Shown here: in pieces, positions 20,122 to 26,114 of the stretch
Numbering within the stretch: position 1 is the stretch's first letter
How the letters are laid out: each line of letters starts with the position of its first letter
The notes under the pieces: generated by a model
The model's input: the letters and a program-made list of their open reading frames with translations, nothing else
Told to the model about the DNA's origin: nothing
Database searches by the model: none
Source of the DNA: Desulforegula conservatrix Mb1Pa
Lineage (GTDB): Bacteria > Desulfobacterota > Desulfobacteria > Desulfobacterales > Desulforegulaceae
DNA length: 64,000 nucleotides
Assembly (NCBI RefSeq): GCF_000426225.1
Contig: NZ_AUEY01000003.1
Location: forward strand, 1 to 64,000
Reading direction: 5' to 3'
Translations under genes and position numbers: made by a program

Positions 20122-20538
20122 TCAATCAATATTTTCCTCAGTTTTAACATCTATGCCGTGGCTGAGAAGCATTTCAGCAAAAAGGCCATTCCCGTCAATG
20201 AGTTTCCCTGAAAAGGAGCCGTCGTAGATTTTTCCGCAGCCACAGGAAGGTGACCTTGCCTTTAGTATGGCTGAATCGCATCCGGCAAGAAGGGCGATCT
20301 TAAGGCCCTGTTCCGCGCCTTTTTTGAATTCAGAGGAAACATCATCACCGGCTTTTGTGAAAACCATGCCATTTTTGATTTCACAGCAGATTCTTGGGGT
20401 AGGAAGTCCCCCAAACTGTTCGGGGCAGACAGGAATTGCCTCACCTTTTCTGACGAGATTCATTACTTCTTCAACCGGGCTTGATTTTCCGTCATATCTG
20501 CAATTGATGCCTGCAAGGCAGGCGCTTACTATTTTCAT
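20122..20538 (-). CDS. DUF523 family protein
   Basis: 138 residues, the common length for stand-alone DUF523 (YbbK-like) proteins, whose function is unknown. Conserved cysteine motifs are clear: CLAGINCRYDG at the start, VCPEQFGGLPTPR in the middle, and KARSPSCGCGKIYDG, a pattern suggesting a metal or Fe-S site. It uses ATG 20538 with an AGAAAG-type ribosome site. The PEBP gene lies 120 nt downstream, with a half repeat between. Confidence 0.88.
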   Translation of the reverse strand: MKIVSACLAGINCRYDGKSSPVEEVMNLVRKGEAIPVCPEQFGGLPTPRICCEIKNGMVFTKAGDDVSSEFKKGAEQGLKIALLAGCDSAILKARSPSCGCGKIYDGSFSGKLIDGNGLFAEMLLSHGIDVKTEENID

Positions 20539-21330: not shown

Positions 21331-21366
21331 CTGGTGCGCAAGCCTTAGAGCTTGAGCACCCTACGA
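21331..21366 (-). repeat. Third repeat family, copy A
   Basis: Read on the minus strand: TCGTAGGGTGCTCAAGC, then TTGCGCACCAGATTCG. It matches the 56009-56043 copy (TCGTAGGGTGCTCAAACC ... TTTGCGCACCA). Its TAG forms the stop codon of folE2. Confidence 0.6.
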
Positions 21367-22326
21367 ATCGGATTTTTTCAGGCTGTTTTCTATCTCCGTA
21401 ATCCTGCCCATTGTTGTTGATACCTTACACCAGACATTGTGTGTGTGAATGCTTTCAAGGCTGAGGGATTCTATTTTTACAGGGGTATCAGAAGAAAGCT
21501 TTCCTCCCATGATTCTCCCGGCTGCTCTTGCTGTTTCCCTTGCAGCGTCTTCGGCAAACTGAGGGGCTGAATGGGATTTCAGGACAATTTCAGCCTCGTC
21601 GTTTCTTTTCAGAAGGTCATTTGTGGTGTGAAGGGCGGATTTAATACATGTAACAAGATCCTTCCACTCAGGATAGCCGTTTGAAACCCTGACAGCAAGC
21701 CTGGTGCTTGATCTCTGGGAATGGGTCGGAAGGCATTTAGAGCTTTCTGTGTTGAAAAGCGCACGGTTATATTCCTGGGTACAAGGACAGGCTGTTATGT
21801 GATCCATACCTGCTGACAGAACAGTCTCGAGCTTCAGATTTTCGTCTTTTTTCAGTCCTGAAACTGATATGTCAATCATCACGGAATCTATTGATTTGTT
21901 TCTGCTTGCAGTCGTTGTCTGAATCAGAGGAATCTTGCCGGACAGATTTACGCTGACTTTGTCGCCCGTCTGCTTTTCACCAATTTTTCTCGCAAGTTCT
22001 TCGGCATAGACTGTGGGACTTTCAAATAAAACACCATGAAGTTCTGAAATTGCTCCTTCCATTCTGGACATGTGAATGCCCCTTGAATCAGGGGGAAGGC
22101 TGACAGTTATGGTTGCCTCAAAAGGAATAAGTCCTTCGGGAAGGCTTATCCACAAGGTTTTGTTGCTTATTCCAACTTCATCGAGAAACAATGGGAATGA
22201 TGGGGCCTGCTCAGGAATGTCTTCGCTGGTGTTTAATATTCTTTTATGTTCTGATTCGGGTATATATTTCAGAGACGAGGCTCCAGATTCTTTGTCGCGG
22301 TAAAAAAATCCTGAAAAGTTTTCCAT
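21361..22326 (-). CDS. folE2: GTP cyclohydrolase FolE2 (type IB)
   Basis: 321 residues. FolE2 turns GTP into 7,8-dihydroneopterin triphosphate, the entry step for folate, biopterin or deazapurine (queuosine) routes. Key features: DEVGISN near the N-terminus, the metal/catalytic Cys in TACPCTQEY, and LPTHSQRS with the conserved His. The N-terminal 35 residues are a variable extension. ATG 22326 has AGAGGG 6 nt upstream, inside the end of the glycosyltransferase gene (58-nt overlap), so the two are translationally linked. It is last of four genes with a RibD_C protein, a PP-loop protein and a glycosyltransferase, not classical folate genes. Confidence 0.92.
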   Translation of the reverse strand: MENFSGFFYRDKESGASSLKYIPESEHKRILNTSEDIPEQAPSFPLFLDEVGISNKTLWISLPEGLIPFEATITVSLPPDSRGIHMSRMEGAISELHGVLFESPTVYAEELARKIGEKQTGDKVSVNLSGKIPLIQTTTASRNKSIDSVMIDISVSGLKKDENLKLETVLSAGMDHITACPCTQEYNRALFNTESSKCLPTHSQRSSTRLAVRVSNGYPEWKDLVTCIKSALHTTNDLLKRNDEAEIVLKSHSAPQFAEDAARETARAAGRIMGGKLSSDTPVKIESLSLESIHTHNVWCKVSTTMGRITEIENSLKKSDS

Positions 22327-23156
22327 GATGTGCCCTCTTTTCTGGTTATATTCATAGCCTGATCAAAAAAGTGAATAAGAGTCGCGTCTGCTCTTCCTGA
22401 TGCTTCGACAACTTTTTTGATATTTATGAGAAGATTTTCTATTTTTGGCGCAAGGCTATCAGCGCTGCAAAGGCTGCCCTCATGGAGCATTCTTCTTGAT
22501 ATGACTTTTTCACAAAAACCGAAACTGAATTCTGAGCTCAGTTTTAGAAAAAAAGCCCAGTCTTCGCCTCTGTTCAATTCAGGAAATCCGCCTGCAGAGT
22601 CAAATGCCTTTTTTGTTACAGCCGCAGATGAAGGAACCGTAAAGCACCATCTCGCCATATTCCTGAAACAGTCACCTCTGTAACCCTTTCCGTTTTCGGG
22701 AATAAGAAATTCACCGCCAGAGACTTCATTGTGGTTGAGGGTGATGCCATAGGCAAATTCATGGCCGCTTTTTATTATTTTATAAAGAGATTCAGCATGA
22801 TCAGGCAGCCATTCGTCATCTGAATCCAGAAACATGAGAATCTCAGAAGAAGATGCATCTACTCCGAGATTTCTTGCCTTGCCAGGCCCTGTGTTTGCTG
22901 TTTTTACAATGATTATATTGGGGAAAAGCCTGGAAATTCTTTCAATGGTCGAATCCGAAGATCCGTCATCGACCATGATTATTTCTATGGACAGACTGGT
23001 ATTCTGGCTGATTACGCTTCTTATGGCCTTTTCAACCAGATGCTCCCTGTCCTTTGTGGGTATTATGCAGCTTATGTCTTTATTCAAAATATTTTCCGGG
23101 ATTTGTTGCGGCCTTGTATGTCTGCTGAAAAAATGGTGCGTGGGAGGACGCCACAC
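22269..23156 (-). CDS. Glycosyltransferase family 2
   Basis: Up to 295 residues, GT-A fold. Motifs: ISCIIPTKDREHLVEKAI for nucleotide-sugar binding, MVDDGSSDST, and the metal-binding FLDSDDEW. After about residue 230 the match to known folds fades. The listed GTG start at 23156 lies inside a repeat (23134-23166) that also ends the upstream gene, so the first about 23 residues are probably not native. A TTG at 23087, with GGAAA upstream, directly precedes NKDISCII and may be the true start. It overlaps folE2 by 58 nt. Acceptor unknown; within this operon it might decorate a pterin or related product. Confidence 0.85.
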   Translation of the reverse strand: MWRPPTHHFFSRHTRPQQIPENILNKDISCIIPTKDREHLVEKAIRSVISQNTSLSIEIIMVDDGSSDSTIERISRLFPNIIIVKTANTGPGKARNLGVDASSSEILMFLDSDDEWLPDHAESLYKIIKSGHEFAYGITLNHNEVSGGEFLIPENGKGYRGDCFRNMARWCFTVPSSAAVTKKAFDSAGGFPELNRGEDWAFFLKLSSEFSFGFCEKVISRRMLHEGSLCSADSLAPKIENLLINIKKVVEASGRADATLIHFFDQAMNITRKEGTSWKTFQDFFTATKNLEPRL

Positions 23157-23166
23157 ACCCTACGCT
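23134..23166 (-). repeat. Third repeat family, copy B
   Basis: Minus strand: GCGTAGGGTGTGTGGCGTCC, then CCCACGCACCATT. Similar to the 21331-21366 and 56009-56043 copies at its GTAGGGTG and GCGCACCA ends. Its TAG is the stop codon of the PP-loop gene, and its body makes up the N-terminal extension of the glycosyltransferase frame. Confidence 0.5.
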
Positions 23167-23924
23167 ATGAGCATTTCCTTTATCCGACCAGGTCTGAAAC
23201 ATTCGGCTGCGGCTTTGGGTTCTCCTGCAATTTTATATTTAATATATTCTTCAAGCACAGGAAGCATGTCAGACAGATAACGCCCTGTTTCATTTTCCGT
23301 GGCAGTTGTGTAAGTCTGGGAAAAAAGGCATTTTCTTTCGCCTCCTCCGGTTGATGGAAGTCCCTGGTCTTCAAGATAATGCTTTGAAACGGTTTCTTCT
23401 GAAAAGTCTTCAAAAACAGGGTAGGTGGTTCTGATTCCGAATTTTTCAGAAAAAGCATTCATTGCATCCATGAATGTCGGGGTCTGTTCAGGATAATAGG
23501 ACTGTTTTTTCGTATATCCTGCCATCAGAAGTTTAACGTCATTTTCCAGACAGTAGATTATCGCCCTTGTGTGCATCGCGGCCTTGCATGCCACGCAGAC
23601 AAGGTTTTTGCCGTTATACCTGGGCATGAATTCTTCGTATCTGTCCAGCCATAATCCCTGAAAAAGTCTGCCGGAATCAAGCTCTATCAAAAGGCTCTCA
23701 GGAAGCTTTTCCTTGGGAGAATGGGATTCAAGAATTATCTTTGCCGTATCGAATCTGTTTTTTGTGAAATGCGGAAATCTGGACATTCCGTTCAGCATAT
23801 TAAGAAGATGAATTCTTTCGGGCTTAGGCACTGAAGTGTGGCTGCCTGTGAAGCTCATAGCGTATAAAGCCAGAGAATCAGTGCCGCCTGAAAAAAGTAT
23901 TGCCGAGTCTTTTATGTTTATCAT
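23160..23924 (-). CDS. PP-loop ATPase, QueC/ExsB-like but divergent
   Basis: 254 residues. The N-terminal AILFSGGTDSLALYAM is the PP-loop pyrophosphatase motif that adenylates a carbonyl or tRNA substrate. CVACKAAMHTRAIIYCLEND follows near residue 118 and ERKCLFSQ near 215; these cysteines are not spaced as in the QueC zinc site, so classical preQ0 synthase is doubtful. ATG 23924 overlaps the stop of the RibD_C gene (ATGA) and has CAGGG upstream; the longer frame overlaps that gene and is not favoured. It is second in the four-gene operon. Substrate unknown. Confidence 0.78.
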   Translation of the reverse strand: MINIKDSAILFSGGTDSLALYAMSFTGSHTSVPKPERIHLLNMLNGMSRFPHFTKNRFDTAKIILESHSPKEKLPESLLIELDSGRLFQGLWLDRYEEFMPRYNGKNLVCVACKAAMHTRAIIYCLENDVKLLMAGYTKKQSYYPEQTPTFMDAMNAFSEKFGIRTTYPVFEDFSEETVSKHYLEDQGLPSTGGGERKCLFSQTYTTATENETGRYLSDMLPVLEEYIKYKIAGEPKAAAECFRPGRIKEMLIA

Positions 23925-24580
23925 TTTATAACCCTGTATTTTGTAAAGATTTCGCCGGTTTCCCCTGAATGCGAACACTCGACCAGCTCAAGCTTGACAA
24001 GGGATGAAATTTTTTCTTTAGAGTCTGCCACAGTGGAAGCCCATTTGTCTCCTGATATGAAAGGTGCGATTGTAAGAAGTACTTCATCTATCAGGCCTTC
24101 TTTGAGGCAGGAATAATTGAAGCTGCCGCCTCCCTCCACAAGAATTTTTTCAGCTCCCATCCCGGAGAGCAACCCGAAAACTTCGGAAATGGAAATGCCT
24201 GATTTTTGACCTGATTCAGATATTGATCTGGAAACGCCTTTTATTACAGCTTTGTCCTCAAAAACTTTTTCAAGTTCAGCTGACAGCTCAAACGGAACAA
24301 AAATTACAGGCTTTGGGCCGTTTATGAAAATCTTTCTGTTTTCATTGGGGATATTTCCCGAAGCTGAAACAAATGCCCTTATCCTGTTTTCCGGAAGCCT
24401 GCCACCTGTGCATCTCATTTCAGGATCAGCATCCCGGAGTGTACCCGCGCCCATTATGCTCGCATCTGTCTGATCGCGAATGGATTCAAGCAAACGTCTG
24501 TCTTTTATGCTTGCAAAGCCGACAGGACTTATTCTTCCGCATATTGTTGACGCAACTATCATTGTCGCTTTTTTGTTCAT
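23921..24580 (-). CDS. RibD C-terminal (DHFR-like) reductase
   Basis: 219 residues. This fold (RibD_C) reduces pyrimidine or pterin intermediates with NAD(P)H. Seen here: STICGRISP near residue 12, GAGTLRDADPEMRC for nucleotide binding, EKILVEGGGSFNYSCLKEGLIDEVLLTIAPFISG as the family's C-terminal signature, split over two strands. No deaminase domain is present, so it is not a full RibD. ATG 24580 follows AAAAGGA; a TTG one codon earlier is less likely. First of the overlapping operon with PP-loop, glycosyltransferase and folE2. With FolE2 it may act on a pterin. Confidence 0.85.
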   Translation of the reverse strand: MNKKATMIVASTICGRISPVGFASIKDRRLLESIRDQTDASIMGAGTLRDADPEMRCTGGRLPENRIRAFVSASGNIPNENRKIFINGPKPVIFVPFELSAELEKVFEDKAVIKGVSRSISESGQKSGISISEVFGLLSGMGAEKILVEGGGSFNYSCLKEGLIDEVLLTIAPFISGDKWASTVADSKEKISSLVKLELVECSHSGETGEIFTKYRVIK

Positions 24581-24621
24581 CAAATTCCTTTTGAGCTCAG
24601 TTCAGACTCCTTGAAAAATCA

Positions 24622-25824
24622 TCAAAAAACGCTGCCCAGAAGTTTAGTTATCAACTCCTCCAGCGGGATCATCGTAAGTATCAGAGGCATTCCAGGCAGT
24701 AGGGTAAAAAAAACAAGGTGAACGACCGTCTCCCTGCTGAAAGGAAAAGGCTTTATTTCACGGATCACCTGGAAGCTGTTCCCAAGGTCTGCAAGAGACT
24801 GAATATCTCCGCTTCCGACGAGGGCTTCATCATCGCTTGCGCCTCCGCGCACCCATTTCGAGTCAAAATCGCTGACATATTTGCTGGCAAGTATTCCGTA
24901 TTCGCGCATGCCGGTTCGTTTGGCACTCATCAGGGCAGGCGCGAAAAAAGTCAGGGGCCCCAGCACCAGCATGAGAAGAAAAAGCACCACGCCAAGAATT
25001 TCCAGCTGAAAGTCCGGAAGCTTCGCTCCGGCAAAAAAAATTGGATTTGCAATAAGCCCTGCCACTCCAGCTCCGTGGGCCATAAGAAGAGGCGCAAACA
25101 TTGAGCTGCTACCGCCAAGAAAACCTATTCCTGCGGCACGGTCAGGGTGGGTAGGTATAAGGTCGAGATCGAGCCGCGAGCTTTGCCAGAGAAAACGAGC
25201 CCATATAAAAACCCTGAAATACCAGCGGAGGAGAATGAACTGAAACATGGGCCTGCTGATGAAAATATACCAGTAGCCTGCCGGTGAAAATTGGGTGATC
25301 CCGTTAACCCTTGTGGAATACCAGCTTCCTGCATCATCTCCGATTCTTGTTATACCACTGAACGTGGCCCAAATATAATGTCCTGCGACAAAAACCAGAA
25401 CGAACATTATCAATTCAATGAGCACAGAATTTCTCAGTTTCATTGCCGAGGCAATAATATCCCTGAACTTTGGCATAACCTCTTCGGTGATGATCTCGCG
25501 GTCTATGAACTGCCCGACAATCATGCGCATTCTTTTATGAACCAGCAATTCGGCGACAATGAGCAAGGGCAGAGACACAAGAAAACGGGCATGGGTTTCG
25601 ATGTCATAAAAAAAAGGAAGTCCGATACCGCCCCAGGCCCTGGCGCTGAATATAGAAAGAATAAGGAGAGGCAGCCAGGTGATCATGATTACGGAGATAA
25701 TCCTCCTGTTCATCAGCTCAAGAGCAGGAGTTGCGAGTCTTGAACGAACCAGAAACTGGAACACTGGTCCACCCAGAACGAGCGAAAAATCAGGAGGTTC
25801 ATGGGAATTATGAATGTTTTGCAT
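24622..25824 (-). CDS. Multi-pass membrane protein of unknown function
   Basis: 400 residues, not recognised. About six to seven hydrophobic segments: near residues 45-65, 80-98, 145-165, 190-215, 250-280, 300-325 and 370-395. A PTHPDRAAGIGFLGG motif in mid-protein stands out and recurs, from memory, in uncharacterised bacterial membrane proteins. The start at ATG 25824 is chosen because AAGGAG is 7-8 nt upstream; two earlier in-frame starts are too close or lack a site. It lies 42 nt upstream of the RibD_C gene on the same strand, so could be the first gene of that operon. No catalytic motif seen. Confidence 0.8.
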   Translation of the reverse strand: MQNIHNSHEPPDFSLVLGGPVFQFLVRSRLATPALELMNRRIISVIMITWLPLLILSIFSARAWGGIGLPFFYDIETHARFLVSLPLLIVAELLVHKRMRMIVGQFIDREIITEEVMPKFRDIIASAMKLRNSVLIELIMFVLVFVAGHYIWATFSGITRIGDDAGSWYSTRVNGITQFSPAGYWYIFISRPMFQFILLRWYFRVFIWARFLWQSSRLDLDLIPTHPDRAAGIGFLGGSSSMFAPLLMAHGAGVAGLIANPIFFAGAKLPDFQLEILGVVLFLLMLVLGPLTFFAPALMSAKRTGMREYGILASKYVSDFDSKWVRGGASDDEALVGSGDIQSLADLGNSFQVIREIKPFPFSRETVVHLVFFTLLPGMPLILTMIPLEELITKLLGSVF

Positions 25825-26114
25825 AGCCATTCTCCTTGTTAAGTCTTTAGAGCCAATTGCAAAACCAAGAATTGTTATGTCTATATACGCTTTATCGCAC
25901 AGAAAATTTTTCAACACAAGCAGAGCATAAATATGGAGTAAAATCGAATCGTAGTTATTGACTTGAAGTCAGTTTGAGTGCATAATCCAATCAAATTCAA
26001 CAACACCCTTATTCCGCTTTTTCCATTTTCTTTGTTCTGATCCAAGATTATATCCCCGAGCATATTTAATCAGTAAGTTTAATGTGACGGGAATTAATAA
26101 CGGCTTTTATTTTT
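25825..26114. other. Divergent intergenic region
   Basis: AT-rich region between the membrane protein (minus) and the solute-binding protein (plus). It should hold both promoters; none is convincing by eye. Its right half is repeat copy 7. Confidence 0.25.

Follow-up and report, generated by a model that had tools for sequence, protein, structure and literature searches.

Which product is made by a gene set that combines a GTP cyclohydrolase, a reductase, a PP-loop ATPase and a glycosyltransferase, each of an established enzyme family, although their grouping corresponds to no pathway known to us? This question is raised by an operon in a stretch of 64,000 nucleotides from Desulforegula conservatrix Mb1Pa (contig NZ_AUEY01000003.1, positions 1 to 64,000 of the forward strand), hereafter designated the window. 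Its four genes are located on the minus strand and encode, in the order of transcription, a RibD_C-type reductase, a PP-loop ATPase, a GT2 glycosyltransferase and a FolE2-type GTP cyclohydrolase. The operon's reductase and its FolE2 paralogue are termed RibDw and FolE2w, and G and L numbers denote the genomes and loci compared. Three of the four families are inherited together, the closest relatives of the PP-loop protein are nucleobase sulfurtransferases, and we tentatively propose that the operon specifies a route from GTP to a sulfur-bearing pterin. The genes are arranged as follows:

23921..24580, minus strand: RibDw, RibD_C-type reductase; ATG start at 24580, TTG at 24583 also possible; PF01872, 73 bits
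23160..23924, minus strand: PP-loop ATPase of the YcfA/TgsB sulfurtransferase clade, with a CxxC motif and a further cysteine (C128, C131 and C217 in P0003 numbering)
22269..23087, minus strand: GT2-family glycosyltransferase; TTG start likely; PF00535, 100 bits
21361..22326, minus strand: FolE2w, divergent FolE2-type GTP cyclohydrolase paralogue; PF02649, 147 bits

A preliminary description, made from the sequence of the window, had placed a four-gene operon on the minus strand at this position, and this is borne out, with Pfam identifying three of the proteins (FolE2, 147 bits; GT2, 100 bits; RibD_C, 73 bits) and the PP-loop protein reaching no cut-off in Pfam or NCBIfam. Its statement that all four genes overlap holds for two of the junctions: the RibDw and PP-loop genes share 4 bases (ATGA), and the GT2 and FolE2w genes overlap out of frame by 58 bases (55 bases in L021 and L022), the start MxxxSG of FolE2w being common to the window, L021, L022 and L023. 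The PP-loop and GT2 genes, in contrast, are separated by 72 bases. A terminator-like hairpin is located inside this gap; such hairpins are not enriched in the stretch, with 5 found and 6.3 expected from shuffles.

Joint inheritance was assessed in a sample of 395 genomes of the window's phylum, against which each profile was searched. The profiles were derived from relatives of the PP-loop protein (A1), FolE2w (A2), RibDw (A3) and the GT2 (A5). A1 to A3 were made before the phylum scan, and G000 is the only one of the 20 positive genomes that contributed to them; A5 contains 13 sequences, of which 9 come from the 20 positives, with the unlinked GT2s of G380, G412 and G423 excluded. The PP-loop profile matched 20 of the 395 genomes at E 6e-112 or better, the FolE2w profile 20 at E 1e-60 or better, and the RibDw profile 20 at E 1e-30 or better, the latter two thresholds being our own choice. 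The three lists consist of the identical 20 genomes (13 genera, 9 families). Three further genomes contain only remote PP-loop homologues (4e-11 to 3e-13) and appear in neither of the other two lists. This association of three families is far beyond chance. The operon-type GT2 was found in 17 genomes with at least 248 bits, all of them among the 20, the best other of the 395 reaching 159 bits. The gene set is thus conserved, and the joint product assumed in the preliminary description is supported by the identical pattern of the three core families. The positive genomes are related, so that they do not represent 20 independent events; families f3 and f84 each include positive and negative genera.

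All four genes occur in the order of the window in 12 of the 20 genomes, in G390 apparently across a contig break. In G332 and G481, which lack the GT2, the core three fall inside a stretch of about 8 kb. RibDw is located elsewhere in G343 and G507, and in G380, G402, G412 and G423 RibDw and the PP-loop gene are found at one place and FolE2w at another. In the single-contig genome G380 the set is distributed over three sites (GT2 at 0.36 Mb, RibDw and PP-loop gene at 0.88 Mb, FolE2w at 1.55 Mb). Separation of the genes in relatives had been named as a finding that would speak against a joint product, and they are indeed apart in these 6 of the 20 genomes; yet the core three are still all present in each, the GT2 being lost in one of the six (G402). 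Genes that are dispersed and nevertheless retained in one genome are strong evidence for a common product, so that this finding strengthens rather than refutes a joint function. Beyond the 20, the PP-loop gene was seen in 12 genomes. G024, G025, G028, G051 and G071 possess all four genes, in G024 and G028 as a RibDw-PP-loop pair and a GT2-FolE2w pair on separate contigs. A scan of genome contigs that gave 6 loci used strict peptide patterns from one protein, and these loci are therefore uninformative on other phyla. Pairwise-distance correlations among the four families (0.66-0.88; 22 or 30 genomes) did not control for shared ancestry and were given no weight. From the phylum-wide pattern we conclude that the four genes almost certainly have a joint function.

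The first clue to this function is provided by FolE2w, which shares the fold family and all active-site residues with FolE2 (GTP cyclohydrolase IB) and archaeal MptA. The positions aligning with C147, H159, E201, E216, E243 and H246 of Neisseria FolE2, which we take to serve in metal and substrate binding, are conserved in all 30 sequences (H296 of FolE2w in 28 of 30). Since these residues are all kept, FolE2w should be an active cyclohydrolase. Unlike FolE2 and MptA, it stays below both NCBIfam equivalog cut-offs, for canonical FolE2 or MptA (130.7 of 220 and 109.1 of 215 bits), the stretch from cysteine to histidine between the metal ligands is about 10 residues longer, and 19 of the 20 genomes have it in addition to a canonical FolE2. 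In Pfam it scores 147 bits (cut-off 25), compared to 328 bits for the canonical FolE2 of the same genome on another contig. The pterin-type route started by a GTP cyclohydrolase that had been suggested for the operon is thus supported, and the product is very probably derived from GTP in this way.

Two well-known pathways can be set aside. Canonical FolE2 (at least 256 bits) is present besides FolE2w in 19 of the 20 positives, the match of G332 containing one in-frame TAA; a third, weaker FolE2 match occurs in 6 of the 20, and 10 of 10 negatives checked have exactly one FolE2, the canonical one. An ordinary folate operon was rejected, as the canonical enzyme is a separate second copy. Canonical QueC was found above the cut-off elsewhere in all 20 positives (in G560 as two contig pieces), and the PP-loop protein itself is not QueC, P0003 scoring 11.4 bits with the Pfam QueC model (cut-off 22); a weak QueC match was obtained for 3 of 13 relatives (best E 0.0025). 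A queuosine or deazapurine set was therefore also rejected, QueD and QueE not having been searched for. As the preliminary description had stated, the operon represents neither a folate nor a queuosine set. Anti-phage defence was discarded with no PADLOC match among the four operon proteins, and a phage origin was discarded as well: in a PHROG search with three operon proteins (GT2 excluded) FolE2w alone matched, weakly, and viral contigs, searched with two peptide patterns, contained no PP-loop relative.

Further FolE2 copies showed features of their own. In two genomes the canonical gene is located directly downstream of a TtcA-like gene (L109:6867-8438, contig G000:C32; L110:7391-8964). A third FolE2-like protein (L104:7613-8473) has counterparts in L100, L101, L102, L103 and L105 (G570-G575). 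The neighbourhood is common to the six loci; in L104 it includes genes judged by eye to resemble DnaJ, MoaC, DksA, GalT and response regulators. Of the six copies, that of L104 was read; it has lost the active-site CPC and is possibly a non-catalytic FolE2 beside a molybdenum-cofactor gene.

The chemistry that distinguishes the operon is indicated by the PP-loop protein. Its predicted structure (7 sequences; mean predicted local distance difference test score, pLDDT, 80.8) is by far most similar to that of Erwinia amylovora YcfA (Z 23.7, root mean square deviation 2.2, 210 residues). The next matches, at Z 13.6 to about 11, are 4-thiouridine synthetase/ThiI, ArtA, argininosuccinate synthase, MnmA-type proteins, QueC and LarE. 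A sequence profile likewise retrieved YcfA (E 1.4e-16) as the sole PP-loop protein at E values up to 1. According to their titles, the structure entries of YcfA include GTP-bound and ATP/GTP-bound complexes. Together with a sulfur-mobilising partner, YcfA is reported to perform an oxygen-to-sulfur exchange (Litomska et al. 2018). A tblastn search of 72,556 plasmid records returned 5 homologues, the best being a TgsB-type protein on Staphylococcus plasmids (E 2e-11, 26% identity, 82% of the query). Its neighbours (a class V pyridoxal-phosphate enzyme, NUDIX, a DMT transporter, NUDIX and HAD) correspond to the genes that make up the tgs operon in coagulase-negative staphylococci, which has been shown to make 6-thioguanine (PMC7994395). 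The closest relatives of the PP-loop protein are thus the nucleobase sulfurtransferases YcfA and TgsB, with which it shares the PP-loop sulfurtransferase fold and an H...YC...G...Q signature and may, by analogy, share a presumed oxygen-to-sulfur exchange on a guanine nucleotide. The deazapurine or QueC-type reading of this protein in the preliminary description is not supported, and the sulfur step had been missed there.

A second line of evidence comes from three cysteines. C128 and C131, which form a CxxC motif, and C217 are invariant in 31 of 31 PP-loop sequences, the second and third being 86 residues apart; the residue counts given here for all four families omit G173 and the remote homologues L025 and L046-L048, and one of the 31 rows is gapped at the SGGxDS loop. 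The [4Fe-4S] cluster ligands of NcsA (PMC10067955) are Cys142, Cys145 and Cys233, with a distance of 88 residues. The CxxC of our model is positioned at the start of a long helix, and NcsA and TtuA are in the Foldseek list (E about 3e-4 to 3e-3). The family thus resembles NcsA, and TtuA/TtcA, among the [4Fe-4S] tRNA thiolases in the SGGxDS loop, the CxxC motif and, for NcsA, a third cysteine 86-88 residues on; unlike these enzymes it has no recognised tRNA-binding part, and overall sequence similarity is very weak. We regard it as probable that the PP-loop enzyme inserts sulfur.

If it did not, it might activate a pterin for ammonia or an amine, as QueC, ArtA and NadE do with their substrates, and the product would be an aminated, glycosylated pterin. 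PP-loop folds perform both chemistries, and the structural matches ranking behind YcfA include ArtA (Z 13.1) and QueC (Z 12.3). YcfA scores about 10 Z units higher, however, and the three-cysteine pattern of [4Fe-4S] thiolases is invariant, which leaves this alternative a slim chance. Alternatively, the gene set could modify tRNA or DNA with a thiolated or deazapurine base, the pterin enzymes just supplying the precursor. The NcsA-like cysteine pattern would fit, as would a DNA-methyltransferase-like gene (by eye) between the PP-loop gene and FolE2w in G332. The nearest relatives, in contrast, act on free guanine nucleotides, and besides G332 no transglycosylase or nucleic-acid-modifying partner was recognised by eye in the loci, without a profile search. 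A role in nucleic acid modification is therefore highly improbable.

Remote PP-loop homologues that keep the CxxC motif (L098:4430-5263, L097:3189-4016, L099:7549-8463 and L025:9057-9794) occur in genomes without FolE2w. That of L098 adjoins a radical-SAM-like gene, named by eye. They constitute another branch of the YcfA-like clade that awaits characterisation.

The reductase is less specific in what it indicates. RibDw matches PF01872 (RibD_C) with 73.1 bits (gathering cut-off 24.1) and misses the equivalog model of archaeal riboflavin reductase, TIGR01508 (78.1 of 186.45 bits). Its structural model, of middling quality (pLDDT 73), is closest to the archaeal 2,5-diamino-6-ribosylamino-4(3H)-pyrimidinone 5'-phosphate reductases MthRED/MjaRED/Rib7 (Z 22.0), and Rv2671, which was solved with a dihydropteridine, is tied within 1 Z (21.2). 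Since RibDw is near both types, the substrate that it reduces may be a ring-opened pyrimidine or, instead, a dihydropterin. Cys15 is invariant in 30 of 30 sequences and corresponds, by eye, to the Asp of SLDGR in the one canonical RibD read. The first of these substrates would lead away from pterins: FolE2w could stop at, or leak, the diamino-ribosylamino-pyrimidine, RibDw would reduce the ribose to ribitol, and the product would be a thio-analogue of a flavin/F420 pyrimidine precursor. The closeness of RibDw to the archaeal reductases (6p8c, 2azn) favours such a route. We nevertheless judge it rather improbable, given that the FolE2 active-site residues are kept in all 30 sequences, by which full conversion to a pterin is expected, that no lumazine-synthase-like gene was recognised beside the operon (by eye in the loci inspected, no profile search), and that the RibD_C fold also includes the dihydropteridine-binding Rv2671.

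The fourth protein belongs to the GT2 family (PF00535, 100.3 bits; cut-off 23.3); its DxD and ED motifs are kept in 22 of 22 sequences and D40 in 21 of 22. The glycosylated end product envisaged in the preliminary description is supported as likely.

Taken together, these assignments suggest a dedicated pathway from GTP to a sulfur-bearing, reduced and usually glycosylated pterin in which thiolation by the PP-loop enzyme comes first, a proposal to which we give a little less than an even chance. In the first step, the PP-loop enzyme would adenylate the O6 carbonyl of GTP, which corresponds to O4 of the pterin, and exchange oxygen for sulfur to give 6-thio-GTP, the sulfur coming from sulfide or from a donor held at a [4Fe-4S] cluster on C128, C131 and C217. 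FolE2w would then convert the (thio)nucleotide into 7,8-dihydro(thio)pterin (4-thio-dihydropterin), RibDw would reduce the dihydro(thio)pterin with NADPH, most simply to the tetrahydropterin, and the GT2, where present, would add a sugar. The insertion of sulfur, the cluster, the order of steps, the target of glycosylation and the identity of the product are what we infer from the families and their relatives. The two initial steps might also be reversed, FolE2w making dihydroneopterin (tri)phosphate and the PP-loop enzyme then thiolating the ring or side chain of the pterin. Ordinary GTP should fit FolE2w, as the active-site-aligned residues are all kept; on the other hand, YcfA, to which the PP-loop protein is most closely related, has structures with GTP according to the entry titles, and the strong divergence of FolE2w (147 versus 328 bits) is explicable by an unusual substrate. 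We consider the reversed order unlikely.

The source of sulfur is a point at which the operon differs from the YcfA/TgsB systems, in that FolE2, the reductase and usually the GT2 take the place of recognised NUDIX and desulfurase genes. By Pfam, no NUDIX protein or cysteine desulfurase was found among the other three operon proteins and 8 window neighbours (4 of them without any Pfam match), and none was recognised beside the operon in relatives, judged by eye. NcsA functions with inorganic sulfide in vitro (PMC10067955), which would fit this absence. With no desulfurase recognised and a gene set that survives scattering, the product seems to us better interpreted as a cofactor than as an antimetabolite for export. 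In its most specific form the proposal would be a new class of cofactor, a usually glycosylated 4-thio-tetrahydropterin carrying a ring thione; a [4Fe-4S] YcfA-like thiolase would convert GTP to 6-thio-GTP, a FolE2 specific for thio-GTP would act on the latter, and the pathway would be retained in at least nine families of one phylum. In this full detail it is possible, though doubtful.

Several observations weigh against the proposed thiopterin pathway. It rests on genes and their comparison, namely families, residues, joint inheritance and the relationship to YcfA/TgsB, and no enzyme that would use the product was recognised. YcfA and TgsB are about 20-26% identical to the PP-loop protein and have neither the CxxC nor the third cysteine of its family, so that identity of the substrate is not assured. 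C143, the cysteine that this family has in common with YcfA and TgsB, is replaced by Ser or Ala in 2 of the 31 sequences; together with the invariant CxxC and third cysteine, this makes a [4Fe-4S] thiolase mode likelier than that of YcfA. An hhalign comparison with two TtcA-like sequences placed CxxC on CxxC in a short and weak alignment (probability 36%, 35 columns). The ribosylaminopyrimidine reductases nearest to RibDw use a ring-opened pyrimidine, not a pterin. The operon GT2 is absent in 3 of the 20 genomes (G332, G402, G481) and in G570-G574, which have the three core genes; it was not found in the fragmentary G173, which contains RibDw and pieces of the PP-loop gene and FolE2w. The metagenome-assembled genome G575 is the exception to joint inheritance, having the PP-loop gene and lacking FolE2w, RibDw and the operon GT2; G570-G575 are possibly of the same species as some of the other G-numbered genomes. 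In G343, FolE2w is the sole FolE2 found.

Two known systems come closest to such a product. Molybdopterin is the known sulfur-containing pterin, also derived from GTP; its sulfurs are located on the side chain and are introduced via the MoaA/C/D/E route, and these families are absent from the operon. The pterin-glycoside pathways of cyanobacteria and green sulfur bacteria follow the same logic of GTP cyclohydrolase, reductase and glycosyltransferase; the operon differs from them by the lack of a 6-pyruvoyltetrahydropterin synthase or sepiapterin reductase and by the additional thiolase-type PP-loop enzyme. Among 5.39 million papers of the open literature, a set that lacks most subscription papers, neither such a pathway nor the word thiopterin was found, no three of FolE2, RibD, glycosyltransferase and PP-loop were named together, and the matches for a sulfur-containing or thiolated pterin referred to the molybdenum cofactor.

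Genes in the vicinity of the operon include the following:

20122-20538, minus strand: TudS/DUF523 thiouracil desulfidase, PF04463, 151 bits; about 0.8 kb downstream of FolE2w
24622-25917, minus strand: membrane-protein-like gene, 431 residues, no Pfam match; separated by about 40 bases from RibDw, which lies downstream of it
L084:9320-10006, L096:9537-10229, L146:7980-8729 and L147:8742-9494: SYLF/Ysc84-like genes, named by eye

TudS strips sulfur off thiolated bases and nucleotides (PMC10611767), and its position next to a predicted thiolation pathway is suggestive; the other loci, which reach some kilobases around the operon genes, gave no match to it. The membrane-protein-like gene, possibly encoding a transporter, also has no match in the other operon loci. 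In four families a SYLF/Ysc84-like gene for a secreted protein is located just upstream of RibDw. DUF166 genes follow FolE2w in three families (L084:5554-6174, L095:4966-5598, L130:7658-8416) and occur in 16 of 20 positives versus 7 of 30 control genomes; DUF166 was tried as a fifth member and rejected from the core because the genome of the window lacks it. In G332 (L078:8548-14255), the DNA-methyltransferase-like gene and two more genes (by eye) between the PP-loop gene and FolE2w are perhaps a mobile restriction-modification insertion.

Whatever the product, the exact match of three families in 20 of 395 genomes, for which no described function was found, poses a well-defined experimental problem, given four enzymes that lend themselves to stepwise assay. 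If the proposed pathway is true, the 6-thioguanine sulfurtransferases would be one branch of a wider clade that places sulfur on GTP-derived rings. The phylum, going by six relatives, includes bacteria of the sulfate-reducer type, and their pterin would bear sulfur in the ring, in contrast to the side chain of molybdopterin, as a redox and metal-binding variant of a very old cofactor family. If experiments bear this out, the product would be novel in kind, whether as a cofactor or as a natural product.

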